Origin: an uncultured Lachnospiraceae bacterium
Lineage (GTDB): Bacteria > Bacillota > Clostridia > Lachnospirales > Lachnospiraceae
DNA: 64,000 nt
Reading direction: 5' to 3'
Assembly (NCBI GenBank): GCA_947567595.1
Contig: CANOMQ010000006.1
Coordinates: forward strand, 1 to 64,000
Every line of letters starts with the position of its first letter. The first letter of the stretch is position 1. The notes beneath the pieces are model-generated. The model had not been told where the DNA came from, did no database searches, and saw only the letters and a program-made list of their open reading frames with translations. Of this stretch, positions 1,170-55,761 are shown one piece after another. Both the position numbers and the translations under genes were made by a program.

Positions 1170-1613
1170 CGGCGGCGCGCGCGTCCTATAAGGCGCACAC
1201 ACTAAGGCGCAAAAAAAGCGCACCCGCACAATGGCAGGCACGCCCGTAATGAAAATCATGTATTCTTTTGTAATATGTCCGGGGATAAGATAGAAATGTG
1301 TCGAATAAAAAAAGCCCGCAGCCCCCTTGGAAGGAACTGCGGTATGTACAGAAAGAATATGATGTTTGTCTGCAGGTGGCGGAAATCCGTTTCCAGCCCG
1401 TGCAATGGCCATAATGTCCCCTTTCGTGGGGACAGCATTTTGTTCCGGCTTCCCCGGCAGCCTGCCGGCGTCATCCGGCAGGGAAGCCCTGCATGGCCGC
1501 CCCGCCGGATGGCCTGTCCTTTCTCTGAACAATAGAAAACACCCAGCATAACGCAGCCGTCCTGGCTGCCTTTATCGGGTGTGTGTCGTAGTTTATCTTT
1601 TTACTAGCCGTAA
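1170..1613. other. Gene-free, structured DNA with a minus-strand terminator
   Basis: No convincing gene is seen. The region contains several strong hairpins, including GTCCCC/GGGGAC around 1416-1434 and GCCGG-type stems at 1460-1480. A classic intrinsic terminator for the minus strand lies at 1307-1342 (CCGCAG...CTGCGG followed by seven T on that strand). Because the next gene upstream already has its own terminator at 1617-1669, this terminator may end a short non-coding RNA of roughly 250 nt, but no clear promoter was found. Confidence 0.35.
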
Positions 1614-1616
1614 CTA

Positions 1617-1669
1617 GAAAAAGCGGGCGCACTGCAATCCACATTCATCGTGAAAAGCAGTACGCCCGC
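1617..1669 (-). terminator. Intrinsic terminator
   Basis: Arms GCGGGCGCACTGC (1623-1635) and GCAGTACGCCCGC (1657-1669) pair with one mismatch and are followed on the minus strand by a T-run (1617-1622). It lies just past the small Cys-containing gene at 1720-1875. Confidence 0.65.
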
Positions 1670-1719
1670 CAAAATGTATGTATCGCTTTTGTTTACCGTT
1701 TTTTAATGTATTGCGGGGA

Positions 1720-1875
1720 TTACAGCACCGTCCTGCCCGGCGGTATTTCCTCAATGTCAAGGATGTGCCGCTCGCACTTCGGGTTCGGACATCTAACCCT
1801 TTCCACCGAAACCGACTCCCCACACTGATATGTAACAAGGGAACCAACCTGTCCCTGCCGGTTCCCTTTTATCAT
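1720..1875 (-). CDS. Small Cys-containing (zinc-ribbon-like) protein, 51 aa
   Basis: A short minus-strand frame from ATG at 1875 to TAA at 1720 encodes a 51-residue protein with VTYQCGESVSVERVRCPNPK followed by CERHILDIEE. It has three cysteines (C18, C29, C34), the last two in CPNPKC. It resembles small Com/zinc-ribbon proteins of phages and elements but lacks one cysteine of a four-cysteine site. The ribosome binding site is weak. A terminator directly downstream (1617-1669) supports expression. It probably marks the end of the element-derived segment. Confidence 0.45.
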   Translation of the reverse strand: MIKGNRQGQVGSLVTYQCGESVSVERVRCPNPKCERHILDIEEIPPGRTVL

Positions 1876-1907
1876 TTGTTCTTTATTGGTTTTAGCTCAT
1901 TAAAGAT

Positions 1908-42975: not shown

Positions 42976-43048
42976 GCACCGCTAGCTCAGTTGGTAGAGC
43001 ACCTGACTCTTAATCAGGGTGTCCAGGGTTCGAGCCCCTGGCGGTGCA
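42976..43048 (+). tRNA. tRNA-Lys (anticodon CTT)
   Basis: The 73-nt cloverleaf has acceptor arms GCACCGC (42976-42982) and GCGGTGC (43041-43047), D arm GCTCAGTTGGTAGAGC, anticodon loop CTCTTAA with CTT at 43009-43011, and T arm CAGGGTTCGAGCCCCTG. CCA is not encoded. Its 3' part, from within the anticodon loop to past the terminator, is repeated at 55619, so it is the integration target of the prophage and is reconstituted by prophage sequence. Confidence 0.95.
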
Positions 43049-43066
43049 CGAAAGCACTATTTTTGA
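43006..43066 (+). repeat. attL, left copy of the 61-bp core repeat
   Basis: The repeat runs from the anticodon loop of tRNA-Lys through its 3' end into the first arm of the downstream terminator. It is identical to 55619-55679. Beyond it the next 33 bp stay similar: a diverged hairpin tip, then an identical TTGGGGATGGTGTTTTTATT block. Confidence 0.9.
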
Positions 43067-43095
43067 GGCTTTAGCCTTGGGGATGGTGTTTTTAT
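43052..43095 (+). terminator. tRNA-Lys terminator (left copy)
   Basis: CACTATTTTTGAGGCT pairs with AGCCTTGGGGATGGTG, largely through G-U pairs in RNA, followed by TTTTTATTTTT. The same hairpin with different tip bases occurs after the right core repeat (55665-55708). Confidence 0.65.
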
Positions 43096-43112
43096 TTTTG
43101 CAAATTTCTTTT

Positions 43113-43145
43113 TTAGGCACCTTGACCAAAAATCAGGGTGCCTAA
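43113..43145. promoter_or_regulatory. TTAGGCACC inverted repeat beside attL
   Basis: TTAGGCACC (43113-43121) and GGTGCCTAA (43137-43145) are exact reverse complements. A third TTAGGCACC lies at 55607-55615, just inside attR. The position beside both ends suggests integrase arm-binding sites, although the inverted repeat could also be a weak terminator for the integrase gene. Confidence 0.45.
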
Positions 43146-43158
43146 AATCAGGATTTTT

Positions 43159-44067
43159 TTAATATCCTTTTTGGAAAAAGATCGGATCCAAATGGTACAC
43201 GTCAACACCCAGCATTTTGCTTTCCGCTGCAAGCCGGCTGTAAATCTTTGTTACATTGTAGTCGCTGTGTCCCATGAACACGCGTAAAAATTCCAAGTTG
43301 CCGCCGCCGATGAGGTAGCTTGTCGCAAATGTATGGCGGAGCAGGTGCGCATGGAGCCTTTTTATTCCGGATTCTTTTTTTAGTTTTGTAAAAAGATGTT
43401 TGACTGCATCCGCCGTTAAAGGCTCCTTGGAACGCAGTGACAGAAAAAGCATTTCGGAGGAATGGGCGCGTTGCAAAACGTAGCTGGTAATTTCATCTAT
43501 CAGGAAATCAGGGATTAGTGCAATCCTGCTTTTGCAGCCCTTGCTTTCCAGTATATGTATGATGTTCCGTTCCTGATCAATATCCTCGTAACGCAGGTGC
43601 CGGATTTCCTGCGAGCGCAGTCCGCAGTCAAGCATTAAGTGAAAAATGCAGTAATTGCGCCGCCCTTTTTCCGTCAGCATGTCAAAACAGGCGTCAATCT
43701 TTTTGACCTCGTCGGCATAAAGCACGACCTTTGGCATGGAATCATCAGGGGGCATGCGGACGCCTTTCAAATAATCCACACACAGGTCATTCTGATAGCA
43801 GTATCTTAAATATGCCTTTGCAATGCGGCAGTAGCTGCGGATTGTGACATTTTTTACGTTTTTTCCGCGCAGATGGATGATGAAATCGCCAAACAATGCG
43901 GTATTTTTGAAATCATCAAAGGAAAGCTGCCCGATGTCTTTTCCGCCCGTCATTTCTAAGAAATCAAAGAAAACTTTCAGGTGTCCTTTATAGGAACGCA
44001 GCGTTTCCGGGGAGCAGTAAACCGACCTGCTCCGGATGAAAAGGTCGTATGTTTCCTTAATCGTCAT
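43159..44067 (-). CDS. Tyrosine recombinase (prophage integrase)
   Basis: The 302-aa protein has an N-terminal SAM-like core-binding domain (about 1-95, TIKETYDLFIRSRSVYCSPE) and a catalytic domain. Its active residues are visible: Arg in DCGLRSQEIRHL, His-x-x-Arg in HAHLLRHTFATSYL, His in VFMGHSDYNVTK, and the nucleophile Tyr in KIYSRL. It lies next to the tRNA and attL, as expected for the integrase of this element, and would insert and excise it by recombining the tRNA-Lys core. The start overlaps the rep stop codon by 11 nt, so it shares the rep transcript. Confidence 0.93.
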   Translation of the reverse strand: MTIKETYDLFIRSRSVYCSPETLRSYKGHLKVFFDFLEMTGGKDIGQLSFDDFKNTALFGDFIIHLRGKNVKNVTIRSYCRIAKAYLRYCYQNDLCVDYLKGVRMPPDDSMPKVVLYADEVKKIDACFDMLTEKGRRNYCIFHLMLDCGLRSQEIRHLRYEDIDQERNIIHILESKGCKSRIALIPDFLIDEITSYVLQRAHSSEMLFLSLRSKEPLTADAVKHLFTKLKKESGIKRLHAHLLRHTFATSYLIGGGNLEFLRVFMGHSDYNVTKIYSRLAAESKMLGVDVYHLDPIFFQKGY

Positions 44068-45664
44068 TGTTAAAATCTCCGTTCCTTAAGTCTTCATAGT
44101 CAAACAGTTCTCCCGTGTCTTCATCCAGCAGACGGAAGCGGTGCAGATCCCCGCCCTCAAAGACGCCGGAAAGTTCCTCCGGATTGAACTGCCGCAGTCG
44201 TTTTGATTTGTAAAGCCTTGCGTTGTAAATGTCGTTGTCATTCATTTTCAAAAGTGCTTCGTAGGCATCCTGAAGCGGACTGTCTTCATTCAGTCCCCTT
44301 GTATAAATGCCAAGCGTGACCGCGGAGCAGAGCACGCGCTTTTTCATGGCGTCAATGTTCAGCTTCCTGTTGTAGTTTCGGACAAGGCGCGCTTCTTCCG
44401 GCGTCATCCGCATGTCGATGCAGCGTGTCCTCCGCAGGGCATCCCAAAAACGGCATAACGGGCGGCGTGACTTCTTTTCGTTTCCTGTCTTTTCCACCAT
44501 CCGGAATACCTTGTCGGTAAGATAGTCTATGATAATTTTGCGGTTGTCAAAATACTGGTAAACGCGTGCGCACTCGCCGAACTGCGAGTAATCCTTGAAT
44601 GGGATAAGCTCATAGCTTTTGCTGTGCCTGCGCATTGTCTGGTATTCGACATTCACAATCAGGTTGATTTTGGGCGTCAGTTCGTCCGCAAGCTTTATCA
44701 GGTCATCCTCATTGATATGCTCCGTGCCGTCAAGTACCCTGCTGACTTTTACAAGCTTTTCAGGGTTCCTTCCATGTTCCCTGTAAAATTCCAGCCTTGC
44801 ATAAAAGCGGTAGAACCAGTTTTTCTTCTCGTAACATTTTTCATATACATATTTGTCGTATTTGTTGATTAGACCGTTCATTTCCCATATCTGGAAAAAC
44901 CACGGCTTGTAATTCTGCTCTATGACTTCGCGCGATTTCAGGTAAATCCTGATGAATACCTTGTCGGAACGCTTGCCGAGTGCGACATAATCAATCTCGT
45001 AATCTTCGGAGCCGACTTTGTTTGTTACGTACGTAGCATTCTTGAAACGGTCAACGCGCATTTTGTAGAAGCTTTCCGGCGCGAAGAACTTTTCGGGATT
45101 GTTTAAATAGTTTGTATGCCAGCAGTAGTCAATCCTGTTTTCCTTAACCTCCGAAATCTCAAGACCGAAAAATTCCGCGAAGCTCTGCACGTACCTGTAG
45201 GAATTTTCGAAACTATCACGCACGCCGTACTGCCACAGCATGTAGCTGCGGAGCTGCACGATGCATTCCGCCGTCACGGACTCGCCGCCATCTCCTGCCT
45301 TCGGCACGGAAGGCGCGATGAAGATGTCGAAATATTCGGGGTACGAAAGGCATATGTTGTAAAAGCGCGAAAATGTCACGGGCTTTAACACGAGGTTCTT
45401 GTCAATGTCCTTCAGGTAGAAGTCACCTGAAGCGGGATCGTCGCTGTCGTATACGTAGCGGTATTTCACGTCAAAGTAACGGCGGAGCCGGAGGACTTTT
45501 TTATCCTTTGTCCTTGCGCGGAAATCGTTTTTGAATTTCACGCTGTAGTAGAATGTATCTATGTTGTGCAGGAATGAATCCCTATGAAAAGAAAAATATT
45601 CTTCCTGCTCCTCCAAATCCATTTCACTGAACAGTTTATTGTCTATATTGTTTCTATCAATCAC
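44057..45664 (-). CDS. Replication initiator, Rep_trans-like (rolling circle)
   Basis: The 535-aa protein has a middle region (about 150-260) resembling the replication initiation factor family (Rep_trans, which includes RstA of CTXphi): ENRIDYCWHTNYLN, VTNKVGSEDYEIDYVALGKR, SDKVFIRIYLKSREVIEQN. In such proteins a tyrosine nicks the origin and starts rolling-circle replication. The exact nucleophile cannot be named here. It starts with GTG, with GAGG 8 nt upstream. A perfect TTGTAATACAA site lies 30 bp upstream. The following integrase gene overlaps it. The assignment rests on motif resemblance and on its place between integrase and Zot. Confidence 0.65.
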   Translation of the reverse strand: MIDRNNIDNKLFSEMDLEEQEEYFSFHRDSFLHNIDTFYYSVKFKNDFRARTKDKKVLRLRRYFDVKYRYVYDSDDPASGDFYLKDIDKNLVLKPVTFSRFYNICLSYPEYFDIFIAPSVPKAGDGGESVTAECIVQLRSYMLWQYGVRDSFENSYRYVQSFAEFFGLEISEVKENRIDYCWHTNYLNNPEKFFAPESFYKMRVDRFKNATYVTNKVGSEDYEIDYVALGKRSDKVFIRIYLKSREVIEQNYKPWFFQIWEMNGLINKYDKYVYEKCYEKKNWFYRFYARLEFYREHGRNPEKLVKVSRVLDGTEHINEDDLIKLADELTPKINLIVNVEYQTMRRHSKSYELIPFKDYSQFGECARVYQYFDNRKIIIDYLTDKVFRMVEKTGNEKKSRRPLCRFWDALRRTRCIDMRMTPEEARLVRNYNRKLNIDAMKKRVLCSAVTLGIYTRGLNEDSPLQDAYEALLKMNDNDIYNARLYKSKRLRQFNPEELSGVFEGGDLHRFRLLDEDTGELFDYEDLRNGDFNNDD

Positions 45665-45694
45665 ATTTAATACCTCATCAATCTCTTTTTTTGG

Positions 45695-45705
45695 TTGTAA
45701 TACAA
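45695..45705. promoter_or_regulatory. TTGTAATACAA operator-like site upstream of rep
   Basis: Perfect palindrome, 30 bp before the rep start codon. It is one of about ten related sites between genes of the prophage (see also 47003-47231, 53625-53688, 55380-55433). Confidence 0.5.
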
Positions 45706-45860
45706 TTGGTTTACATAATATTCATTTGCTGAAATGGCAATTCTAGCAAATGAGTTAGTTTAAACTTACATCTAATGTTTAAAGGCATTTGAGGCTGTTT
45801 TCAGCATGTAATGCAATGGAATTTGAGACCACGTATTACAGGCTGTGGAGCCGGGAAAAA

Positions 45861-45924
45861 AGCCCCCGCTCCGTGCATGTCCGCGCCGCGGGGCGGCGCG
45901 GACATGCTTTCCGGAGCGGGGGCT
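45861..45924 (-). terminator. Long terminator after the Zot gene
   Basis: A 13-bp outer stem (45861-45873 with 45912-45924) and a 14-bp inner stem (45875-45888 with 45894-45907), both very G+C-rich, are followed by TTTTTTCCC on the minus strand. They lie right at the 3' end of the structural operon and separate it from rep. Confidence 0.8.
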
Positions 45925-45929
45925 TCTTC

Positions 45930-46802
45930 CTACCTTTTTGTATCATGGATTTTGATTTTGACCACCCGGTCTTCCGAAATGGGATTATTCTCCTGAAAGC
46001 CTGCTTCCGATAACGCGTCAACAACACTCCATGTGTCATACGAATCCCGGAGCCTGTCCGAATGCACGAAGCAGTACATGCCGCGGTACTTTAAGTCTTT
46101 CACGTCACCGTCATTGTCAATGATGGGCTCCCGCCTCACGACGACGGTAAGCACCCCGGCAAGCGTGACGCACTGCCGTATCTCCGTGCACTGGGAGCGT
46201 ATCGCCTTGGCAAGCAGGTAAAAATTCTGTGCGGTTCCCAGAATGACGCGGCGGTTCTTCCTGTTCTGCGTGATGACGCCGAGCATTTCGGCGGGAAAGT
46301 TCCGGCTCTGGTTGGAACCGAACCAGTTCTGGAGCTCGTCCATGATGACGACGATGCCCTTGTGCCCGTTCTTATAATTGACGAGCTGTTTCCAGTGCAG
46401 AAGCTTCTCATCCTGATACGCAAACTTTGTGTTGCTTAAGCATTTCGCCTCCGGATATGCATCAAGGACATCGATTGCGTACTGCATCAGCGCGGAGGTC
46501 TTCCCGTTCCCCTGCCTTCCGGTGAAGATGATGAGCCCCTGCGGGCGGAAGAAGTCAGGCTCCCTTTTGTAGATGTCATCGACATAGCGGCGCGGGGCGT
46601 CCCAGAAGAGCCGCAGGAACAGCGAACGCGGCTTCACCCTCCTCGTGCTGCCACGCTTCACGCGGTCACCCTTCAGCCAGCGCACCGCATACCAGAAGAA
46701 CACGGCAGCGAAATAATAGCCGATGAAGCCGAACACGGCTATGAATGGTATCTTGAATATGGACAGGAATATGCCCATGATCTGTGTAAACATGTCAAAC
46801 AT
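45930..46802 (-). CDS. Zot-like filamentous phage assembly ATPase
   Basis: The 290-aa protein has the Zot/pI ATPase domain: Walker A GRQGNGKT (about 95-102), Walker B GIVVIMDE (about 149-156), and QSRNFPAEMLGVITQNRKNR downstream. In filamentous phages this inner-membrane ATPase drives extrusion of the virion. Here the hydrophobic segments are at the N-terminus (about 10-42) and nothing hydrophobic follows the ATPase domain, unlike the mid-protein TM and periplasmic tail of classic pI/Zot. That fits a host without an outer membrane. ATG 46802 is supported by AAGGAGAC. It is the last gene of the structural operon. Confidence 0.88.
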   Translation of the reverse strand: MFDMFTQIMGIFLSIFKIPFIAVFGFIGYYFAAVFFWYAVRWLKGDRVKRGSTRRVKPRSLFLRLFWDAPRRYVDDIYKREPDFFRPQGLIIFTGRQGNGKTSALMQYAIDVLDAYPEAKCLSNTKFAYQDEKLLHWKQLVNYKNGHKGIVVIMDELQNWFGSNQSRNFPAEMLGVITQNRKNRRVILGTAQNFYLLAKAIRSQCTEIRQCVTLAGVLTVVVRREPIIDNDGDVKDLKYRGMYCFVHSDRLRDSYDTWSVVDALSEAGFQENNPISEDRVVKIKIHDTKR

Positions 46803-46813
46803 AATCAGTCTCC

Positions 46814-46987
46814 TTACAGTGTTTCTAATATTTCGTTGCAGAGGAAAAGCGGCAGCAATAAACAACGGGAAGCTGTTTTTAAAGATTCATCATGCCGCTT
46901 CCACTTCTCCGGTCTGAACCCCCTGTCTATCCATTCGAGCAGAGAGCGGTAATTGGTTCTTTTATGAAAAAGTTTGTAGAATTCCAT
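46814..46987 (-). CDS. Small prophage protein, 57 aa
   Basis: The product MEFYKLFHKRTNYRSLLEWI...SRCLLLPLFLCNEILETL is basic in the middle. It is supported by GGAGG 5 nt before the ATG and by tight spacing (11 nt) to the Zot gene. No family is recognised. Operator-like repeats begin directly upstream (47003), so it may be the first gene of a short transcript with zot. Confidence 0.5.
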   Translation of the reverse strand: MEFYKLFHKRTNYRSLLEWIDRGFRPEKWKRHDESLKTASRCLLLPLFLCNEILETL

Positions 46988-47002
46988 ACATCCTCCAACA
47001 AA

Positions 47003-47231
47003 TGTAATACAAATGCCAGTCTCCAGTGTCGCGATCCGCGTCATTCTGCGTTGGATTTGTAGGACAAATTTTTAAAATAACATCCATTCCGGGAACAAAT
47101 TTGTCTTACAAAAACAGCAGGAAAATTCACGTCTGTAATACAAATCCTTGCTACTGCTATTTCTCCTGAAGTAAATTTGTATTACAATTTACCTGAAGAT
47201 TTTGCGTTCCGGGAACAAATTTGTCCTACAA
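47003..47231. promoter_or_regulatory. Array of TTGTANNACAA-type sites
   Basis: In about 230 bp there are six related sites: TGTAATACA (47003), TTTGTAGGACAAA (47056-47068), TTGTCTTACAA (47101-47111), TGTAATACA (47134), TTGTATTACAA (47177-47187) and TTGTCCTACAA (47221-47231). Two lie inside a direct repeat beginning TTCCGGGAACAAATTTGTC (47086 and 47206). The spacing is 30-53 bp. The array separates the 82-aa gene from the 57-aa/Zot genes and is the densest cluster of a motif found elsewhere in the prophage, so it is likely a multi-site operator. Confidence 0.6.
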
Positions 47232-47474
47232 AATAGGCAATAGATCCCATATGGTTTTTACTACGCTGATTATTATCCTGAATAGCATGATGGAGATAAT
47301 AATCGTGACAATGGGCAAAAGCCCCTTTATCGGCAGTATATAGAACAAAAATGCGAAAAAATCTGAAAAGGTTCGAAATATCGTCGTATCCAAATTAAAG
47401 TGTAACGGCTCATATCCGCCTAGAAAAAACATAAAAGCGTTATAAATCAAATTTATCAGTGTATCTGTTATCAT
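47226..47474 (-). CDS. Small two-TM membrane protein (minor-coat-like)
   Basis: The 82-aa protein is very hydrophobic, with segments at about residues 33-50 (FRTFSDFFAFLFYILPIKG) and 52-78 (LLPIVTIIISIMLFRIIISV). A small membrane protein between the adsorption protein and the Zot ATPase is the position of pVI-like minor coat proteins in filamentous phages. Sequence alone does not prove this. AAAGGACT precedes the ATG, and it starts 5 nt after the stop of the 752-aa gene. Confidence 0.6.
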   Translation of the reverse strand: MITDTLINLIYNAFMFFLGGYEPLHFNLDTTIFRTFSDFFAFLFYILPIKGLLPIVTIIISIMLFRIIISVVKTIWDLLPIL

Positions 47475-47479
47475 ATTGA

Positions 47480-49738
47480 TTAGTCCTTTTCAGATGAATA
47501 TTTTTGATAGGATCTGTCAGCAGCCATAATGGAACCTTCCGTTCCAGAAATTATGCCGGGAAGCTTCAGAAATAAGCGCCAAAGGAACAACGCCCATGCA
47601 ATGGCAAGTATGACTTTGTCCCCAAATTGCTTATAGGGAGCATACCAGCTTACATCAATGATGATAAAACTTCCGGTTCCATAGTTATATTTTTTTGAAG
47701 TTGTCTTTCCAATAGGTATCTTTAGTATAGGGCTGGGCGTTATCCCAAAGAGCATGGTTTTCAGATCATTTATTGCATTTATTACATCATTTTTGAATTG
47801 AAAGTACTCCTGCATTTCCCCGACTTTCTCAAGGGTTGCTGCTTCATTTGGGACAAATACATCCGTCATGACACCTTGCACAGCGTTGGAAATTACACCT
47901 TCAAGCCCTGCATAATCATTTGCAACTGTAATGTCAAAAGTTGGGTTAAGCGTGACGGCAGGAGCTTCAACGGACACATCAGGAACCGCTATGTCGGGAA
48001 TGATTATATCAGGTATTGCAATGTCGGGAATGGTTATGTCCGGTATTACTATATCCGGTACCTTCACCTGAATACCGCTGACTGCGGAAATGATGACGGC
48101 AGGCAAATCAGCAAGCGCGTTAATTGCGGATGCTGCATCGGGAAAGACGTTGGAAAGGACATCTGAAAGGATATCCGGCAAGACTGAAATCTGCGTATCC
48201 GCATAAGCATCTGACAGAACCCCAGCAAGGACGATGGGGATTCCGTTTATAAGAGTCTCAAGATGCTCCGCCGTCATGAACTGCCCGAGCGTGTCCGAAA
48301 AGGAATTAAAAATAGCTGCGGGAAGGTCAAGAATGCGGTCTGCTATGGAGGAGAGAAAGGAAACCGCCTTTCCAATTCCCGTATTTATCTTTGCGGATGT
48401 GCTGTTGATTCCGCCCACTGCGGTCAGAAGGTTCTTATTCTGCTCAATGATTTCCTTATTCTGTCCGATGATGGTTTCCTGGTTTTGTGTTTGCTGTTCC
48501 CGCCATTCCGCCATTTCCTCCGAAAGGGTTGACAAATATCCCATAAGCGTATCAAGATCATAACCGTCCAATCCGTCCATGACATCCGAATCACTGAAGG
48601 AAAAGGACACGCCGTCAGTGTAATCCATTGCACGCGAAGGGTCATAGGAAATGGCATTTCCTGTTGTTTTATAGGTGTACAGCTTCCGTTTAATCTCACC
48701 GCCAAAAAAGGTAGCGCCGACCGTACAGCCGTTGGAATACGCACTTTCCGCATTGCAGAAATACCAGTTAGACATACTTAGAGATGTTGCGCCATAATTA
48801 AAATCAACGCTGGGAAGATAATTCGCATCCGTCTTGGATTCCCATGCGCCGGAAGATACATTATGCACGTAATACTGTCCAGTATAGACGGGCAGGGATT
48901 TAAAATAAGAGCTGAAGGATGACGAATCACGTACGCCGCACTGGGACAACGCACTCTTATAATTCACATTTGACATGATGCACATCCCCTTGTATCCCCC
49001 CCATGGCAACTTATACCCGACAACCGAATAATTAATTGGAATAGGCATAATATACGTTAAAGAACCACCGGCATAAATCAGAAAATAATATTTACTGTCC
49101 GAATATCCCTCCGATTTAAGGTAAGCGGCAGCACCTTCAATGGAAAAATAATCATCAATGCCATCCATTGATTTAAGGGATGTAACCGCATTGACGGTTG
49201 TCGTAATGGATGACACGTAATCACTGTCAACGTCAACGGTTCCTTCCTCTTCCTTCCCGTATGCCTTGTCCACAACGTTCTTGTCACTTTTAAGATATTG
49301 CGTCACCGCATCGGCAAGCACGCTGGTAACATTATTGCTCAGTCCGATGCTTAATCCATTAGCCCGCGATCCCGACAGTGTAATACCGCCGTCAGCCGCG
49401 TTTATAACTTCTCCGGCTTTATATTTCAGGCATAACCCAAGATAATCTTCACCGTTCTGATCCAAGAAAGACGAAAGGAAAGGATTCCGTTTACCCGTAA
49501 GGGAATAATCAAGACCTTTAATATATTCCTTGATAATTTTCTCATCGGATATTGAAAGTTCGCTCCGGACATACCCAGCTGCGGAAAGACCGACAGAAAC
49601 CATTACATTTTCTAACAGCGACTTGAGAGCCCATAACGCTGTTTCTGCCGCCTGTGCCTGAATGTACGAAGTCAATGGCGCGCTTACTATCATGAATGCC
49701 GACATGATGATGCATGTCAGCCGTTTTATTTTTTTCAT
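47480..49738 (-). CDS. Secreted adsorption-type (pIII-like) protein
   Basis: The 752-aa protein starts MKKIKRLTCIIMSAFMIVSA with cleavage near AQA-AE. It has a large N-terminal region without a recognised fold (about 30-390) and a coiled coil (about 415-480, with QNQETIIGQNKEIIEQNKNL). Pentapeptide repeats VPDIVIPDITIPDIAIPDII span about 560-595. A C-terminal TM (KVILAIAWALFLWRLFLKLP) and short basic tail follow. Signal peptide, modular stalk and single C-terminal membrane anchor match the architecture of pIII-type receptor-binding proteins, which cap the virion. ATG 49738 is chosen from the signal peptide and CAGGAA upstream. Confidence 0.7.
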   Translation of the reverse strand: MKKIKRLTCIIMSAFMIVSAPLTSYIQAQAAETALWALKSLLENVMVSVGLSAAGYVRSELSISDEKIIKEYIKGLDYSLTGKRNPFLSSFLDQNGEDYLGLCLKYKAGEVINAADGGITLSGSRANGLSIGLSNNVTSVLADAVTQYLKSDKNVVDKAYGKEEEGTVDVDSDYVSSITTTVNAVTSLKSMDGIDDYFSIEGAAAYLKSEGYSDSKYYFLIYAGGSLTYIMPIPINYSVVGYKLPWGGYKGMCIMSNVNYKSALSQCGVRDSSSFSSYFKSLPVYTGQYYVHNVSSGAWESKTDANYLPSVDFNYGATSLSMSNWYFCNAESAYSNGCTVGATFFGGEIKRKLYTYKTTGNAISYDPSRAMDYTDGVSFSFSDSDVMDGLDGYDLDTLMGYLSTLSEEMAEWREQQTQNQETIIGQNKEIIEQNKNLLTAVGGINSTSAKINTGIGKAVSFLSSIADRILDLPAAIFNSFSDTLGQFMTAEHLETLINGIPIVLAGVLSDAYADTQISVLPDILSDVLSNVFPDAASAINALADLPAVIISAVSGIQVKVPDIVIPDITIPDIAIPDIIIPDIAVPDVSVEAPAVTLNPTFDITVANDYAGLEGVISNAVQGVMTDVFVPNEAATLEKVGEMQEYFQFKNDVINAINDLKTMLFGITPSPILKIPIGKTTSKKYNYGTGSFIIIDVSWYAPYKQFGDKVILAIAWALFLWRLFLKLPGIISGTEGSIMAADRSYQKYSSEKD

Positions 49739-49803
49739 TTCCTGTTCACCCCCGTTTTTCTGTAAAAGAAAAGGGCACTGCCGAAGCAATTCCCTCCCTG
49801 ACA

Positions 49804-50016
49804 CTAGGCAGCATGAAGAACACTCTGTATGAAGCTGATGCCCTTGCGCAGCCCGATGAATGAAATCATCACCGGGATGCACACTGGCAGGAGTGCGATT
49901 ACTTCATCAAGCACGCCGTTCATCATGTCCGCGGTCACGACGCCTGCTATTTTTCCCGTTGAGGATGCTGCCGCCTGCGACGCCCTGACAACAAGTGCCA
50001 TTACTAAACCCGTCAT
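49804..50016 (-). CDS. Major coat-like protein (pVIII-like), 70 aa
   Basis: The protein begins MTGLVMALVVRASQAAASST and has one long hydrophobic stretch (GVLDEVIALLPVCIPVMISF) followed by a short basic end (GLRKGISFIQSVLHAA). Size, a single TM and position just before the pIII-like gene are those of a filamentous phage major coat protein. The N-terminus is hydrophobic up to ASQAAA and may act as a signal peptide, giving a mature coat of about 54 aa. AAGGAGG lies 7 nt before the ATG, a strong site suited to a highly expressed gene. Confidence 0.7.
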   Translation of the reverse strand: MTGLVMALVVRASQAAASSTGKIAGVVTADMMNGVLDEVIALLPVCIPVMISFIGLRKGISFIQSVLHAA

Positions 50017-50078
50017 ATTAAAACCTCCTTCTGAACCATTGAACTGTTACTGTATATCATAAATTGCGCAAATATGAC

Positions 50079-50867
50079 CTAAAAGAATATCCTGAAAAAC
50101 TTATATATGTAATCACACAGGAGGATGACAAGGAACACCACGATGAAACAGCATATGACCTGCAGGTCGGTATGCACCTGCTGGAGGTCTTCATGGATGA
50201 CGGAGGTTTCGGTTTCCGCCTCCGTTGTCCCGGTTTCCGTTCCCGTTTCCGTTTCCGTCTCTGTCCCGAAGCCGATTTCGGTCAGCCTGTCCACTAGGGA
50301 CTTCAGGTAATGGTCGGCATCCTGTCTGTTTACGGAGTCTGTGCTGCCTTCGGTTCCTGTTTCTGGTTCTGGCTCCGTTTCTGATTCCTGTTCTGACCCT
50401 GACCGCGGTTCTGCTTCTGATCCTGTTTTTCCTTCTCCCTCTGTCTCCGCCACTCCTGAACTTCCTCGTCGGTCGTTTCCGGATTCGGGTTCTGTGCCTC
50501 CTCTTCCTGCTCCATCAGTACTTTCGGCTGTCTCTGCTCCGGAGGCTTCCTCACTTTCGTTTTCCTCTGTGCTGCTTCCTTCTCCATCTCCGCTGCCTGT
50601 ATGCCCACTGTCCTTATCAATGGTATCTGCATCAGCAGCGCTTTCAGGAAGTACAGTATCCTTGACAGCATCCGTTTCAGGAAGTTCATCGCCGCCGTTA
50701 TCATGCACAGCATCAGCAGCAGCATCAGCAGGCTTATCAGGTTCACTGTCATTTTCCTTTTCCTCCGCCCTTTCCTCACCGTCGTTTTCTTCTGCGGCTG
50801 CCGCTTCAGGTTCCTCATCGGCGGCAGCCGTAAGAATAAGTGAATCCAAAATGATTGTTATATCCAT
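50079..50867 (-). CDS. Acidic tail-anchored protein, prophage
   Basis: The 262-aa protein starts MDITIILDSLILTAAADEEP, is dominated by Glu, Asp, Ser, Gly and Thr (TETETETGTETGTTEAETE near residue 210), and ends with a TM helix (VICCFIVVFLVILLCDYIYK) and FFRIFF. The charged body is probably disordered. In a filamentous phage it could be a minor coat or surface-exposed decoration protein. It lies directly upstream of the coat-like gene and 3 nt after the next gene. The opposite strand is also open over most of it; low complexity explains that. Confidence 0.55.
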   Translation of the reverse strand: MDITIILDSLILTAAADEEPEAAAAEENDGEERAEEKENDSEPDKPADAAADAVHDNGGDELPETDAVKDTVLPESAADADTIDKDSGHTGSGDGEGSSTEENESEEASGAETAESTDGAGRGGTEPESGNDRRGSSGVAETEGEGKTGSEAEPRSGSEQESETEPEPETGTEGSTDSVNRQDADHYLKSLVDRLTEIGFGTETETETGTETGTTEAETETSVIHEDLQQVHTDLQVICCFIVVFLVILLCDYIYKFFRIFF

Positions 50868-50870
50868 TGG

Positions 50871-51386
50871 TTACACAGCTTTCTTGTCGTTCTTTGAGTC
50901 ATTCTTTGAATCGTTTTTATGGGGTTCTGTCTTTTCGGCTGCGGTTTCATCCTTTGGCGGCTGTACAGGTGCCTTGAGCGAATCGAGTGCTGCCTTTACG
51001 CTTGCCGAATCCGGGGCGTCACAGGGTATCATGCCGGGAAGCTCAAGCCCCGGGAGCACGTAGGGAACGAACTGCACGTGTGACTTGTAGGCGATGTTGG
51101 TAAGCTTCAGGGTCGGCTTGCCGTCCGAACCGACCGCCATCTCAAAGGTGCCCTCGTAGATTGCAGGGGCAATGCGTACCTTGTCGCGCATGTTGTAATC
51201 CACCCAGCTTTTACCGCGCTGCATTCCGACGGCTTTTGTGATGTCATACTCGCTCTGTGCGGAAATCATCGTGTTCAGGAACACGTAATGTATCGTGCAG
51301 CCGTATATCCTTGAGCCGTCCTCCCCCGTCGTGTCGATTGCATTTGCAAAAAAGACCAAGATGTCTGCTTTTGATGTAAGGTTCAT
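50871..51386 (-). CDS. Prophage protein, possible ssDNA-binding protein
   Basis: The 171-aa protein has a beta-rich N-terminal domain (GCTIHYVFLNTMISAQSEYD, YEGTFEMAVGSDGKPTLKLT) and a lysine/asparagine-rich tail (HKNDSKNDSKNDKKAV). Filamentous phages need a single-stranded DNA-binding protein early in the same operon, and a small beta-barrel with a charged tail would fit. No family is recognised, so this is inference from position and composition. A GAGGAGG-like site precedes the ATG. Confidence 0.45.
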   Translation of the reverse strand: MNLTSKADILVFFANAIDTTGEDGSRIYGCTIHYVFLNTMISAQSEYDITKAVGMQRGKSWVDYNMRDKVRIAPAIYEGTFEMAVGSDGKPTLKLTNIAYKSHVQFVPYVLPGLELPGMIPCDAPDSASVKAALDSLKAPVQPPKDETAAEKTEPHKNDSKNDSKNDKKAV

Positions 51387-51403
51387 TCTGTTTTCCTCCT
51401 CGT

Positions 51404-51790
51404 TTAAAATGGTATGATGTTGTTTTCATGTTCTTCCCATGCCTTCCTTATGGACTCGAACCATGCCGTCTCATCTATACGGCTTACCCCGGTCCCGGCA
51501 CACATTTCATGGAACTGGTCAGGGGTCATGCCTTCATAGGCCTCGAAGTATTCCCGGAAGGTCAGGGGCATATGGTCAAGATGGATGCGGTCAACATACT
51601 GGCGGTACCTGTTGCGGTAGAATTCGATTACTTTTTCCGTAGGATCCCACTTGGTTTCAAAAACCGGTTTCTTCCGCTTCTCCAGTTTTTCACGGAATGC
51701 ATCCTCCGTCATGTGTATCCTGTCCCACAGCCACTCCTCATAGCTTCTGATTGTGACGGTTGTCCCGTCTGAAAGTGTATATTCCTTCAT
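51404..51790 (-). CDS. Unrecognised prophage protein, 128 aa
   Basis: The 128-aa protein (KEYTLSDGTTVTIRSYEEWL at the start, FYRNRYRQYVDRIHLDHMPL in the middle) is rich in aromatic and charged residues and is soluble. It overlaps the upstream membrane protein gene by 4 nt, so the two are coupled. No function can be assigned. Confidence 0.55.
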   Translation of the reverse strand: MKEYTLSDGTTVTIRSYEEWLWDRIHMTEDAFREKLEKRKKPVFETKWDPTEKVIEFYRNRYRQYVDRIHLDHMPLTFREYFEAYEGMTPDQFHEMCAGTGVSRIDETAWFESIRKAWEEHENNIIPF

Positions 51791-52050
51791 CTGTTTTCCG
51801 ATCCGCTGCCGTCATCATGTTTCTTCCTGCGCAGCATGCGGGCTGCAAGTTCAAGCACTGTTATGATGGCGATTGTTACTGCCATGACGGCAAGGTCGGA
51901 ATAAAACAGGTGCGTATTCGGCGGTATGACGCTGGTATCCCTGCCATGCCTGAAATAACATACAAACCAGTAAAGGTTGTATAATCCGAGTGCCACCAGT
52001 CCGAAACTGAAGCCGACACCGAGTATTTTCTTAAATTCCTTCTTATCCAT
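51787..52050 (-). CDS. Small two-TM prophage protein, 87 aa
   Basis: The predicted product MDKKEFKKILGVGFSFGLVA... has hydrophobic segments at about residues 9-32 and 47-70, ends in a basic and polar tail (RMLRRKKHDDGSGSENR), and could be a minor virion or assembly protein. ATG 52050 has AGAGG 8 nt upstream. It is the first coding gene after the hairpin-rich region. Confidence 0.55.
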   Translation of the reverse strand: MDKKEFKKILGVGFSFGLVALGLYNLYWFVCYFRHGRDTSVIPPNTHLFYSDLAVMAVTIAIITVLELAARMLRRKKHDDGSGSENR

Positions 52051-52074
52051 GATTACCTCTTTTCTTTCCAACAT

Positions 52075-52650
52075 TTATATGGTTCCCGTTTCCTGACATG
52101 TTCCGGCAGTCCCGGCCAGCCTGCGGCGGCCGGAAGGGCGCAGGGCTTTTGGCGGCGCCTCCACGCTGTGAGCCGGCAAGCCGCACTAAATTCAGGCTTC
52201 GCGCAAGGGCGGCGCTCGCCTTCATTAAGTGCTTTGTTGCCGGCGGGAAGGCGCCGCCAAGTCTTGCCGCCGCAGGCTGCTGCCGGGAATTTTCCGGTTT
52301 TCTGCCGGGTTCTTTTTCCTTTCCGGTTCCGTGTGCTTTGGTTTGGGGGGATACCCCCCAAGCCCGTACTAAATTCGAGACGGCGCACGTTGTGCTTGCT
52401 CTCATTAAGTACTCCCGGCATAGCCCCCCTTTTAGATGGAAAACGGTTATCCTTCTGCGCGGGCAGGGTAAACACGAAATCGGTGCCTTTTCCGCGCGCC
52501 GGACTTTTCACAGGCAGCACGGGATATGTTTTCACACCCCATACCCCTATCTTAGGGGCTGTATTAATGGTTTCCTGATTTGGGGGCGCTGTGCCCCCCA
52601 AGCCCCCGACAGTGCAGGCAGTCCGCCTCTGATGGCTGGATTTACTTAAG
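52075..52650. other. G+C-rich hairpin region, candidate origin or packaging signal
   Basis: No gene is credible. Two structurally matching stem-loops occur: 52183-52232 (arms GCACTAAATTC and CATTAAGTGC) and 52366-52412 (GTACTAAATTC and CATTAAGTAC). The closing pairs differ in both arms together, C-G in one and T-A in the other. G-run hairpins TTGGGGGG...CCCCCCAAGCCC sit at 52344-52364 and 52581-52606. In filamentous phages one large intergenic region carries the replication origins and the packaging hairpin, and this region is the best candidate here. Confidence 0.6.
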
Positions 52651-52781
52651 GGCGTCAGATTGTCTTATATTTTTTATATCCGCATGGCTTAAGCGGCACG
52701 CCTTGTCAAGGGACTTTCGCGGCATAAAGTACGGCTGAAGGGCAAGCCGTAATTTATTCCACGGTTCCCCTGACAAGTCTG

Positions 52782-52877
52782 GTGTATGGCGGCGCAACGG
52801 CTTCGCCGATAACGGGGAACCAATCAAAGGACAGATTGGAGCCCCGTTACCGCCAAATCCATTGTACCGCCATACAC
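52782..52877. repeat. Nested three-tier stem-loop
   Basis: GTGTATGGCGG (52782-52792) pairs with CCGCCATACAC (52867-52877). Inside it TAACGGGG (52810-52817) pairs with CCCCGTTA (52842-52849), and inside that CCAATC (52820-52825) pairs with GATTGG (52834-52839). A separate hairpin TACGGCT/AGCCGTA lies at 52729-52751. The region contains no gene and belongs with the candidate origin. Confidence 0.65.
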
Positions 52878-52973
52878 AGGATATTGAAGCCGTCAGGATA
52901 AAAGACCGTAGGGCGCTGCCCTACAACCCGGCCTCCTCCAAAGAACCAATCGGGTGCTGCCGGAAGTTTTCTG

Positions 52974-53264
52974 TCATTGGAGATAAGGATTCGCTGCATC
53001 AAGTTCATCGAAAAAGGCGTCTAACCTGCGGGCTATCCTTGATGCACTGTTGACTTTCTGCATCAGGGTGTCCAGTCTCTTTCTGCGTTCCTCTATCTGT
53101 TCATCGTAACGCTGGAGAATGAGTTTACGTTCAATTTCTCCGTTCTTGTACTCCGTAAGTATCCCTACCAGCTTCTTGGAAAAGTCAGCGCCGGGCTGGC
53201 TGTCGACATACTCCACAAGGGAGCCGGGGATACGGACGGATTTCTGTATCATCTTTTCCATCAA
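52974..53264 (-). CDS. Ribbon-helix-helix protein with coiled-coil tail
   Basis: The 96-aa protein starts with an RHH-like domain (IQKSVRIPGSLVEYVDSQPG, about 4-45) and continues as a charged coiled coil (LILQRYDEQIEERRKRLDTL). RHH proteins bind palindromic DNA as dimers and act as repressors or relaxasome accessory proteins. Its position beside the nested stem-loop suggests an origin- or operator-binding role. Confidence 0.65.
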   Translation of the reverse strand: MMEKMIQKSVRIPGSLVEYVDSQPGADFSKKLVGILTEYKNGEIERKLILQRYDEQIEERRKRLDTLMQKVNSASRIARRLDAFFDELDAANPYLQ

Positions 53265-53284
53265 TCAATCTCTCCTTTTTTGTG

Positions 53285-53569
53285 TCATGGGAATGGCAGC
53301 TCCGCTGGCTCATCCGCATCGTCATCGGGGAAGTTCTCCAGTTCGTAACGGTATTGTGCAAGCTTTCTGGCACATTCATCAAAATCCTCCGACCTGTACA
53401 GAAAGTGACCATTACAGAACGGGGAGGATGCTTTTTCGAAGCCTATAATTGAATATCCTATAAATGAATATTTCTGAGGCTCCCTGTCTTTCCCATAAAA
53501 GAAAGCTGCCTGCATGATTACATAGCCTATGGAGCGGATTTTTCCGTCCTCACATTTAAAACATTTCAT
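53285..53569 (-). CDS. Unrecognised prophage protein, 94 aa
   Basis: The protein begins MKCFKCEDGKIRSIGYVIMQ and ends in an acidic tail (NFPDDDADEPAELPFP). The first CxxC (CFKC) may be half of a metal site. No family is recognised. AGAGG lies 8 nt before the ATG. It is the leftward gene nearest the XRE regulator, so its promoter lies in the shared operator region and it is likely an early gene. Confidence 0.5.
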   Translation of the reverse strand: MKCFKCEDGKIRSIGYVIMQAAFFYGKDREPQKYSFIGYSIIGFEKASSPFCNGHFLYRSEDFDECARKLAQYRYELENFPDDDADEPAELPFP

Positions 53570-53640
53570 CAATCAACCTCTCTTTCCGGCAATCGCGATT
53601 AGCTTGTTTCCTTCTCATTACATATGTGTTACAATAAAGT

Positions 53641-53703
53641 ATTAGATTAATCTAATAAGACATTGGTTGTCTTACAATTGTATTATAATAGCGAAAACGC
53701 TAT
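53641..53703. promoter_or_regulatory. Lysogeny-type operator region
   Basis: Three kinds of palindrome stand side by side: ATTAGATTAATCTAAT (53641-53656, perfect), tandem TTGTCTTACAA and TTGTATTATAA (53667-53688), and ATAGCG-AAAA-CGCTAT (53688-53703, perfect). A -10 TATAAT (53684-53689) for the XRE gene is embedded. The layout between divergent genes is that of a repressor-controlled switch. Confidence 0.65.
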
Positions 53704-53746
53704 ATGTCAATGATATTTTAGCTTTTTTGCTAATGAGAGGTATAAT

Positions 53747-54106
53747 ATGAGTACATTAGTAGAACGAATTAAACAAAAATGCAAGGAAAATGACCTAACA
53801 TTTAAGGCACTTGAAATGGAATTAGGTTTTGGAAATGGAAATATTAGACGATGGGACACCCAAAAACCAAGTTATGATAAAATAATTGCAGTAGCGGAAA
53901 AGCTAAATGTATCTTTTAATTGGCTAATATTTGGAAAAGAAGCTGATGATTTAACACAAAATGAACAAAAATTAATAGAACTATATCGAAACACAAATGA
54001 TATTGGTCAACCTTTGACAATGAAACATGCGGAAGATATTCAACAGGCATTACCAAGATCTGACCAAACACAGGAGCAAAAATTATTAAATTCACAGATT
54101 GGATAA
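53747..54106 (+). CDS. XRE-family regulator (prophage repressor candidate)
   Basis: The 119-aa protein has an N-terminal helix-turn-helix (LVERIKQKCKENDLTFKALE, LGFGNGNIRRWDTQKPSYDK) and a helical tail. It is divergent from the leftward prophage genes across an operator-rich stretch, like RstR opposite RstA in CTXphi. It probably maintains lysogeny, and the TTGTANNACAA sites throughout the element are candidate targets. The gene is AT-rich compared with the structural genes. It is followed 11 nt later by the NERD gene, likely on the same transcript. Confidence 0.78.
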   Translation: MSTLVERIKQKCKENDLTFKALEMELGFGNGNIRRWDTQKPSYDKIIAVAEKLNVSFNWLIFGKEADDLTQNEQKLIELYRNTNDIGQPLTMKHAEDIQQALPRSDQTQEQKLLNSQIG

Positions 54107-54117
54107 GGAGGCACTAA

Positions 54118-54942
54118 ATGATTAGACAAATTATAGTACTTTTATTTTATATTAGCATGAAAATACTCTATGTACTTTTCATAATAGGAATTTTTTATGT
54201 ACTGGTAAAATTCATAGATCTATTAACATATACAAGAACAAAAAGACGTTATAATTTAGGATACTTTACATCAAGACAATCAAGAACGGATAATATGTAT
54301 GAAGAATACTATCGTTCAACATACTATTTATCTACGCACTTATCTTTTGATGCTGTAATTCATGACAAAGGAAGATATGGAGAATACATGATTTTTAAAG
54401 ATCTCCAAACATATGAAAATTATGGTGCAAGATTTTTGTTTAACTGTTATATTCCTACACAATATAATCAAACAACAGAAATTGATGTAATTATGCTAAC
54501 ACTAAATGGGATTTTTGTTTTTGAAAGCAAAAATTATAGAGGTTGGGTGTATGGACATGAAAAACAAAAACAATGGACATTAACAATACCTGCTGGAAAT
54601 AGAATACAAAAAGAACATTTTTACAATCCAATAATGCAAAATAAATCACATATTAATGCTTTAAAATTTATAATTGGAAATAATATTCCGATATACTCCA
54701 TTATAGTTTTTTCAAATAATTGCAGGTTGAAAAATATACGTGCATCTGATCCAATGACAGAAATCCTATCATTTGGATACTTAAAACCAATAATTCATTA
54801 TTTTTCAAAGCAAAAACCAAATTCATTAACACAAGAAACATTAATATCCATTTATAATAAACTTTATCCCTATACGCAGGTATCGGAAGAAGTCAAGCGG
54901 AGACATGTTGAAGACATACAAACTAAAAAAATGAGGACATGA
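54118..54942 (+). CDS. Membrane-anchored NERD-domain protein
   Basis: The 274-aa protein has an N-terminal TM (about 5-32, LFYISMKILYVLFIIGIFYV) and a NERD (nuclease-related) domain at about 85-215. The domain includes YGEYMIFKDLQTYENYGARF, TTEIDVIMLTLNGIFVFESK (the D...E-x-K core) and YRGWVYGHEKQKQWTL. NERD domains are predicted nucleases. As a membrane-bound protein expressed with the lysogeny repressor it could act in superinfection exclusion or phage defence; this is inference. Its codons are very AT-rich (around 30 percent G+C), unlike the structural genes, suggesting separate acquisition. GGAGG precedes the ATG. Confidence 0.75.
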   Translation: MIRQIIVLLFYISMKILYVLFIIGIFYVLVKFIDLLTYTRTKRRYNLGYFTSRQSRTDNMYEEYYRSTYYLSTHLSFDAVIHDKGRYGEYMIFKDLQTYENYGARFLFNCYIPTQYNQTTEIDVIMLTLNGIFVFESKNYRGWVYGHEKQKQWTLTIPAGNRIQKEHFYNPIMQNKSHINALKFIIGNNIPIYSIIVFSNNCRLKNIRASDPMTEILSFGYLKPIIHYFSKQKPNSLTQETLISIYNKLYPYTQVSEEVKRRHVEDIQTKKMRT

Positions 54943-55058
54943 AACAGCTTCATCACCTGTATACGCGGCTCCGCTATTTCATATCCTCATAGAGATTGAT
55001 GATTAGATTTATCTTATCACAAACCATATCTAAATGCAAACATATTTTTGCATCTTTA

Positions 55059-55087
55059 TTGACATCATGTGACAAAAACTGTAAACT
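55059..55087 (+). promoter_or_regulatory. Promoter of the small toxin-like gene
   Basis: TTGACA (55059-55064), 17 nt, TAAACT (55082-55087). The transcript would start near 55094 and run about 200 nt to the terminator at 55271-55298. Confidence 0.65.
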
Positions 55088-55134
55088 AATATTGTTGTCT
55101 ACCCTATATCTGACATCAGAGAGGGGGTGCATCT

Positions 55135-55242
55135 ATGTTTGACATCATTTCCTTTATAACATCTGTTACGGCAAAAGTAGTAGCCTACTACGTATGCAAA
55201 TGGCTTGACAGATTGTTTAAAGCAGGCAACAAGCCTAGGTAA
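55135..55242 (+). CDS. 35-aa hydrophobic peptide, probable type I toxin
   Basis: The predicted peptide MFDIISFITSVTAKVVAYYV-CKWLDRLFKAGNKPR has one TM helix (about 4-22) and a basic tail. GAGAGGGGGTG precedes the ATG. Peptides of this pattern (xxFLISVxAGVxAYYxCKWLD) are common in Firmicutes. Size, one TM, charged C-terminus and an opposing antisense RNA gene whose terminator overlaps the mRNA's terminator match type I toxins such as TxpA/BsrG or Fst. It would damage the membrane if the antisense RNA were lost, and so stabilise the prophage. Toxicity is inferred. Confidence 0.65.
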   Translation: MFDIISFITSVTAKVVAYYVCKWLDRLFKAGNKPR

Positions 55243-55263
55243 TAAGCCAGCCTAAAAATGGAA

Positions 55264-55339
55264 TAGAAAACCCCAAGAGCTGCAACTCTTGGGGTTTTCG
55301 TTTATGCTGCATCAATGCTAGCATCATTTCCTTTAGCCT
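55264..55339 (-). ncRNA. Candidate antisense antitoxin RNA 1
   Basis: A strong minus-strand promoter, TTGCAT (55374-55369), 17 nt, extended -10 TGCTATAAT (to 55346), would start transcription near 55339. It ends at the hairpin 55271-55294, which is a good terminator in both directions. The RNA of about 75 nt overlaps and is complementary to the 3' end of the toxin mRNA, the usual geometry of type I antitoxins. Confidence 0.6.
55271..55294. terminator. Shared bidirectional terminator
   Basis: CCCCAAGAG (55271-55279) pairs with CTCTTGGGG (55286-55294), flanked by AAAA on the left and TTTT on the right. It ends both the toxin mRNA and antisense RNA 1. Confidence 0.8.
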
Positions 55340-55440
55340 ACGGCTATTATAGCATATGCATTTTTACAATGCAAGATACTTGTAATACAAATTTTATCCG
55401 GGAATCTGATTTGACGCCTTAATTGTATTGCAAATTAAAA

Positions 55441-55517
55441 AGTTAAAAACCCCAAGAGTTACCGCCTCTTGGGATTTTCGTTTAGCTGACTACATGGATA
55501 GCTCCTGTCTTTCGCCT
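55441..55517 (-). ncRNA. Candidate antisense antitoxin RNA 2 (tandem copy)
   Basis: A second minus-strand unit repeats the design 178 bp downstream. It has TTGTAA (55552-55547), 17 nt, extended -10 TGTTATAAT (to 55524), the shared leader GCCGCAGGCGAAAG-like block, and terminator CCCAAGAG/CTCTTGGG (55450-55473) followed by TTTTT. No second peptide gene lies opposite it, so it is a spare or diverged antitoxin copy. Confidence 0.55.
55450..55473 (-). terminator. Terminator of antisense RNA 2
   Basis: CCCAAGAG and CTCTTGGG form a stem with a 7-nt loop, followed on the minus strand by GTTTTTAAC. Confidence 0.75.
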
Positions 55518-55618
55518 GCGGCTATTATAACATATGCACTTTCCCATTACAAGCCAAATATTTGACATTCCGCCCCCAAACCGCTACAATGTTAATAAAC
55601 CCCGTCTTAGGCACCAAA

Positions 55619-55679
55619 ACTCTTAATCAGGGTGTCCAGGGTTCGAGCCCCTGGCGGTGCACGAAAGCACTATTTTTGA
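55619..55679 (+). repeat. attR, right copy of the 61-bp core repeat
   Basis: Exact copy of 43006-43066 containing the 3' part of tRNA-Lys. The tRNA 5' half is absent here, so the copy is not a gene. The terminator hairpin after it (55665-55708) keeps its pairing although its tip bases differ from the left copy. Confidence 0.9.
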
Positions 55680-55761
55680 AGCTTCGGCTTTGGGGATGGT
55701 GTTTTTATTTTTATATAGAAGTTTTACAATAAAAGATAGACAAGTTTTACGGAGGCTTGAT

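Follow-up and report, generated by a model that had tools for sequence, protein, structure and literature searches.

A filamentous phage genome, to all appearance complete, integrated at tRNA-Lys in a gut Lachnospiraceae bacterium, and a likely replication-start signal that accompanies its unusual replication protein

In this work we report that an element of 12.7 kb, at positions 43006-55712 of the window (the whole stretch of 64,000 nucleotides that was analysed), is very probably a filamentous phage of inovirus type integrated in a Lachnospiraceae genome, and probably functional. Judged from its sequence, this phage genome looks complete and sits at tRNA-Lys in a gut bacterium. The resemblance is beyond chance because four relatives (L018-L021) keep the gene order and because L018, L019, L020 and L034 have tRNA-Lys(CTT) with long repeats. 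The kind of virus is already known, with one relative in IMG/VR and Gram-positive gut inoviruses in print; the fresh part is a likely replication-start signal accompanying an unusual replication protein.

RESULTS

Integration site and boundaries

The following features define the ends of the element.

42976-43049, plus strand: tRNA-Lys(CTT), the integration site, left intact (ARAGORN)
43006-43099, plus strand: attL direct repeat, the 3' part of the tRNA and sequence downstream (repeat comparison)
55619-55712, plus strand: attR direct repeat (repeat comparison)
43159-44067, minus strand: tyrosine integrase, 302 aa (PF00589, E 1.8e-32)

The flanking repeats are 94 nt long at 96% identity, and GC content is 0.45 within the element versus 0.458 outside. 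The same tRNA-Lys(CTT) is the site used in L018, L019, L020 and L034, where the direct repeats include exact stretches of 46-102 nt and are separated by 8-12 kb; in L021 the repeat is 95 nt long and the contig stops inside the tRNA. An empty site is found in the same genus (L069), with tatD 173 bp on from the tRNA-Lys, no element between them and the orientation seen in the window; in L037, L038 and L053 the tRNA faces away from tatD. At the same tRNA-Lys, L068 (genome G003, positions 1233-3103) holds an element remnant, a partial integrase (78%) between full and partial tRNA-Lys copies. Exact terminal overlap was not found in the IMG/VR contigs of relatives. The comparison of occupied, empty and remnant sites supports integrase-driven mobility, and falls short of proof of excision.

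Since remnants such as that of L068 are known at this very site, the window element might itself be a decayed or immobile inovirus prophage. We regard this as unlikely: its core genes are open, with 45-91% identity to the closest relative, L018, and its att repeats are intact.

Gene content and structural proteins

From left to right the element carries the integrase, the replication protein (Rep), Zot, the pVI-like, 752-aa, 70-aa, 262-aa and 171-aa proteins, small genes, and then a repressor and a NERD gene. All called genes from the integrase to 53572 lie on the minus strand, and the last two on the plus strand.

45930-46802, minus strand: Zot/pI-type morphogenesis ATPase, 290 aa, with an N-terminal membrane segment (PF05707 above cut-off; TM at residues 8-26)
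47226-47474, minus strand: pVI-like small membrane protein, 82 aa (alignment A6, 10 sequences, 21-68% identity)
47480-49738, minus strand: pIII-like secreted adsorption protein, 752 aa (N-terminal hydrophobic segment, C-terminal TM, uneven conservation)
49804-50016, minus strand: major coat protein candidate, 70 aa (family alignment A5, 11 sequences from 10 loci)
50079-50867, minus strand: acidic low-complexity protein with a conserved C-terminal TM, 262 aa (relatives and hydropathy)
50871-51386, minus strand: candidate ssDNA-binding protein, 171 aa (alignment A2; hhalign)
51404-51790, minus strand: small protein, 128 aa (62% identity, in L018/L006 only)
51787-52074, minus strand: small membrane protein, 95 aa (55%, in L018/L006 only; TM)
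52104-52965, no strand: conserved GC-rich stretch, no gene callable (versus L006, 87% over 320 nt and 72% over 601 nt)
52974-53264, minus strand: small protein of the early region, 96 aa (present in L018, L019, L020 and L021)
53285-53572, minus strand: small protein of the early region, 95 aa (67%, in L018/L006 only)

An earlier note on this DNA had described 61-bp direct repeats with the tRNA-Lys 3' end, a tyrosine integrase at one end, structural genes in one orientation, a Zot-type ATPase, a secreted 752-aa protein with a C-terminal TM, a hydrophobic coat-like protein of 70 aa, several small membrane proteins, and no capsid, tail or terminase genes. This description holds throughout. The first 61 nt of the 94-nt repeat are exact, and the integrase and the strand of the genes are as listed above. 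TM segments, called with a hydropathy script at a threshold of 1.6, occur in the 70-aa and 82-aa proteins, one each, and in the 95-aa protein at 51787-52074; the first two have the form of the short (30-90 aa) single-TM structural proteins expected of an inovirus. Pfam, run on 17 element proteins, and PHROGs, run on 10, gave no convincing capsid, tail or terminase gene, only weak cross-matches, and the 12.7 kb of the element falls within the 5-20 kb expected of inoviruses, which lack such genes. An ORF at 46814-47044 (76 aa) was dropped as it is kept by no relative. The GC-rich stretch is perhaps a second-strand origin or packaging signal. Near the right end, a hydrophobic ORF of 35 aa (within 55135-55300; a similar ORF is present in L006) is followed by an inverted-repeat pair (55267-55298 and 55446-55477), and together these are possibly a type I toxin-antitoxin pair.

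The ATPase, with its N-terminal TM, has the form of an inovirus pI/Zot protein with one or two TM domains. PF05707 is its best Pfam match (25.6 bits, cut-off 20.3), and it also passes the general AAA family (24.7 bits, cut-off 21.2). PHROG ranking places terminase (E 7e-4) and head-morphogenesis (9e-4) families above Zot (0.019), and the 752-aa protein weakly matches the Pfam DNA-packaging gp3 (E 0.084); we read these matches as cross-hits. The hydrophobic peak of Zot is also N-terminal in L018-L021 and L034. A tblastn search of phage records with Zot gave 19 matches, of which eight carry the name Inovirus sp. and the other 11 the name bajarodino virus, which bears out the filamentous identity proposed in the earlier note; the two records examined are both filed under Inoviridae. 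Among solved structures, the Zot profile matched best to 2r2a, a Neisseria Zot domain, at a weak E of 0.013.

It is very improbable that the element is instead a mobilizable plasmid-like or conjugative one whose ATPase merely resembles Zot. Such a reading could draw on the cross-matches of the ATPase to AAA and terminase families, on Rep relatives in records filed as plasmids, on the coat-like proteins of L066 and L096, which give sub-threshold matches to the TrbC/VirB2 pilin family as well, and on the match of the 96-aa protein to a T4SS family at E 0.08. However, no relaxase or conjugation family reached its Pfam cut-off among the 17 proteins, Zot outranks every other Pfam family for the ATPase, the coat, pVI-like and tip genes adjoin the ATPase gene, and the Rep-bearing 'plasmids' themselves carry Zot-family and coat-like genes.

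The coat candidate has one hydrophobic segment (residues 38-56) and no obvious signal peptide, and its family is conserved at the matching place in 10 loci. At a cut-off of E 0.1 it is the only match in the genome, and its sole PHROG match is to a major coat family at E 0.14; three of the 11 family members match a tape-measure PHROG instead (best E 0.054). By hhalign, the coat profile is weakly similar over 32 columns to coat-like proteins of L096 (E 7.8e-5) and L066 (E 1.8e-4), the latter reaching 20.5 bits against Phage_Coat_B, just under the cut-off of 23.5, and the former having no phage-coat family match. In the 752-aa protein, hydropathy marks residues 8-26 and 709-727, which fit a secreted protein with a C-terminal TM, and two overlapping segments within 535-565. 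Compared with L018 in 60-residue windows, this tip protein gives 68% in the first window, 20-63% through residue 600, 62 and 78% over residues 601-720, and 44% at the end. The 262-aa acidic protein is a probable minor structural protein, and the 171-aa protein aligns over 50 columns with a 104-aa protein of L034 (hhalign, prob 80.5). Solved-structure searches with the profiles of the coat, the ssDNA-binding candidate and Rep returned nothing credible.

Relatives and modules

The Zot scan found two loci in viral contigs and 12 in genome contigs, with a Zot relative in 5 of 38 genus genomes (own included) and in 5 of 397 genomes of the family sample (own and G016 included). Out of 15 window genes (tblastn, E<=1e-3), gene order is kept for 13 in L018, 11 in L019, 9 in L020 and 10 in L021; in L020 a change of frame interrupts both the tip gene and the gene of the 171-aa protein. 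L007 and L024-L027 keep the block of coat, tip, pVI-like and Zot genes wholly or partly, and at E<=1e-3 none of them has this Rep; L026 has REP_ORF2-G2P over cut-off, and L007 and L024 have RepD-like proteins below it. As the structural block is kept with differing Reps in distant loci, structure and replication look like separate modules. The same host also has a second, distinct, inovirus-like element of 4724 bp (G000 contig C92, L029), with a Zot of 22.8 bits (cut-off 20.3) and repressor-like, acidic TM and small coat-like ORFs.

Candidate replication protein and origin

44057-45664, minus strand: 535-aa candidate replication initiator of an unnamed family (in 15 of 18 loci its stretch also has a Zot-profile match)
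45827-45848, minus strand: candidate double-strand origin, nick-site hairpin CCAC-N2-CCTGTAATACGTGGTC (shared motif between zot and rep)

Taken alone, Rep has no credible family match in Pfam or PHROGs, and in NCBIfam only far below cut-off. The commonest Pfam match of its family is Rep_trans (PF02486), always under cut-off: it was found in four of nine aligned members (best E 0.0075), the window protein not among them, and in 3 of 18 members of a second alignment (best E 0.0033). The window Rep itself gives no match to Rep_trans, let alone one at the gathering cut-off. Invariant in 30 aligned Reps are R177, D179, H183, Y241, K243, E246, E340 and R345.

In the order sample, the Rep profile matched in 21 of 392 genomes. 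Eighteen loci were examined: L034, L096 and 16 new stretches. The copies in the own genome and in G016 had been found earlier, and G489, G496 and G591:C5, whose matches are fragmentary, were set aside. The 15 with a Zot-profile match include L126, where Zot is 2.7 kb away, L121, at only E 3e-4, and L034 and L096, which helped to build the profiles; the match is lacking in L119 (the contig ends there), L124 and L127. In L096 and in C. difficile L074 the same Rep stands beside a Zot that starts with its ATPase and has its hydrophobic peak further on (1.27 in L096; 1.46 in L074, residues 151-169; both below the 1.6 threshold). Zot layouts of both kinds, 'atypical' with an N-terminal TM and ATPase-first, are therefore found with this replication module. 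The fresh point is that this Rep forms an unnamed family found on one stretch with a Zot-profile match at this frequency, and also on two C. difficile 'plasmids'.

These two records, pCd1_4 (L066, NZ_CP037847.1, 6830 bp) and pJMR5-1 (L074, NZ_ON887052.1, 6499 bp), share with the window a Rep (31% over 88%) and Zot-family, coat-like, tip-like and pVI-like ORFs; they differ in being circular, in being filed as plasmids and in having no origin motif at up to three mismatches. L066 encodes a coat-like protein with a signal peptide and a secreted protein with a C-terminal TM; L074 encodes a Zot-family ATPase of 62.5 bits, and its coat-position ORF has no coat family match. To judge by their genes, both look like episomal inoviruses. 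A further plasmid, pCD6, was set aside as a Rep relative: it is in the plasmid collection yet unmatched, Zot is among none of its four listed genes, and its sharing the size of pCd1_4 is a coincidence. Among the titles listed by a literature search there was none on C. difficile inoviruses, which is no proof of their being unpublished, and the words filamentous, zot, zonula and inovir are absent from the main text of PMC12291638.

The hairpin motif between zot and rep is common to six elements; in L034 its core sits downstream of the integrase instead. Among 299 family genomes the 16-nt core occurs in three, all with Rep, and Rep in four; two of the three were among the seeds, and the third was known before the search. 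Viral contigs contain 13 stretches with the core: the five with the CCAC flank all encode Rep (four newly seen; L078 and L081 close copies), and the eight without that flank have no Rep. Of the 18 order-wide Rep loci, L114 and L034 have the motif without a mismatch, L115 with one and L116 with three, and in 14 it is absent at three mismatches; nine of these 14 have Reps of 25-31% identity, L096 has one of 47% with the contig ending right after rep, and the remaining four (L110, L119, L127 and L128) were not aligned. The hairpin, beside rep, is a candidate rolling-circle origin.

The stretch between genes IV and II of f1, presumably the f1 origin, contains CCACGTTCTTTAATAGTGG, and its alignment to the L019 motif scores 13, a score reached by 8 of 300 shuffles. 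The loose pattern CCACN{6,7}TAATAN{0,1}GTGGWC, built to include f1, showed no genome-wide enrichment, with 12 matches in 385 genomes, five of them adjoining this Rep (one in G131), against 26 matches for the reversed control. Because shuffles reach the score and the loose pattern is not enriched, the likeness of the motif to the f1 origin region is suggestive only. It is a tentative proposal, which we think somewhat more apt to fail than to hold, that the 535-aa Rep is an unnamed inovirus family across Clostridia whose nicking hairpin (CCAC...TAATA.GTGG.C) is homologous to the coliphage f1 plus-strand origin, so that Gram-positive and Gram-negative filamentous phages would share an origin signature, and that the same family drives the C. 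difficile 'plasmid' phages.

Dyads, repressor and cargo gene

47057-47231, no strand: four TTGTNNNACAA dyads between the pVI-like gene and zot (motif search)
53667-53677, no strand: dyad in the divergent promoter region of the repressor (motif search)
55380-55390, no strand: dyad near the right end (motif search)
53747-54106, plus strand: helix-turn-helix repressor, 119 aa (HTH_19 and Phage_CI below cut-off; conserved in L018-L021)
54118-54942, plus strand: cargo, membrane-anchored NERD-domain protein, 274 aa (PF08378, 2e-27; TM at residues 5-23)

There are seven copies of TTGTNNNACAA in the element and eight in the whole window, versus 1.40 expected, and none of 100 shuffles reached eight. 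Five elements together hold 28 (1.16 expected) at matching places: the repressor promoter region, the zot-rep gap and the att side of the repressor in 5/5 each, and before zot in 3/5. L018 has two further dyads beyond the integrase; among looser relatives there are none in L024, L026 and L007 and one each in L025 and L034. Integrase arm sites were rejected as the main reading, as the distances to att vary. It is possible, if less than probable, that the dyads are Rep-binding sites of the origin and not repressor operators: the candidate origin holds TGTAATAC, close to the dyad, and in L020 and L021 a dyad directly adjoins the candidate origin. However, their recurrence in the repressor promoter region and on its att side in all five elements fits a repressor.

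The slot between repressor and att holds a variable gene: NERD in the window and L019, unlike genes without an assigned family in L018 and L020, none obvious in L021, and in L034 a DUF2726 gene beside a 63-aa ORF that we read as ribbon-helix-helix. In each of the five cargo proteins tested there is a single TM segment, at the N-terminus. The matches from PADLOC were weak and partial throughout: PglW, MkoA and PDC-M16A for the cargo, capH and RmrA for the repressor. The cargo may have an anti-phage or superinfection role.

DISCUSSION

The tRNA-Lys insertion, the gene set and the conserved layout agree with the complete or nearly complete inovirus of a gut-type anaerobe that had been proposed, and the divergence of its coat, adsorption and origin parts was called rightly, an origin now being proposable. 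We envisage that the integrase recombines the repeats and releases a circle, that Rep nicks the hairpin at 45827-45848 and starts rolling-circle replication, and that the 171-aa protein coats the ssDNA. The Zot ATPase would feed this DNA through the membrane, where the 70-aa coat, the pVI-like protein and the pIII-like tip would assemble on it with the host not being killed. The repressor would silence the replication module, possibly via the TTGTNNNACAA dyads, and competing phages are probably the target of the membrane-anchored cargo protein.

The closest known system is IMGVR_UViG_2588253902_000001 (L006), which is the same element as L018 (Lachnospiraceae bacterium COE1, KE159628.1). It resembles the window element in zot (89%), rep (88%), coat (91%), gene order and the tRNA-Lys used, and differs in its cargo gene, in a tip protein of only 45% and in a tRNA that faces away from tatD. 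Bajarodino virus 76 (PQ006119.1; Inoviridae, 8774-nt circular) has a Zot of 40% over 96% to the window, whereas its Rep family is REP_ORF2-G2P. The 'atypical' inoviruses likewise have an N-terminal TM Zot, small TM proteins, tRNA att sites and monoderm hosts; a TM domain at the N-terminus of pI is found in about 30% of inovirus species, and monoderm families exist (Roux et al., 2019, PMC6813254). The Enterocloster and Hungatella inoviruses (PMC10061712) share gut Clostridia hosts and flanking direct repeats with the window element and are 6.5-8.5 kb, with one of 16 kb, versus 12.7 kb here; they are secreted, with filaments seen for two strains. Pig viromes have yielded 272 circular inovirus genomes, with Firmicute hosts predicted for some (PMC9723715).

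The finding of one Rep family with both Zot layouts bears on the remark in PMC6813254 that some of the atypical inoviruses might prove to be separate groups. With this study there is a further inovirus whose ends are well defined and whose relatives at a single tRNA site can be compared with it, and the Rep, origin and switch of an inovirus of commensal Lachnospiraceae, until now vague parts, become testable.
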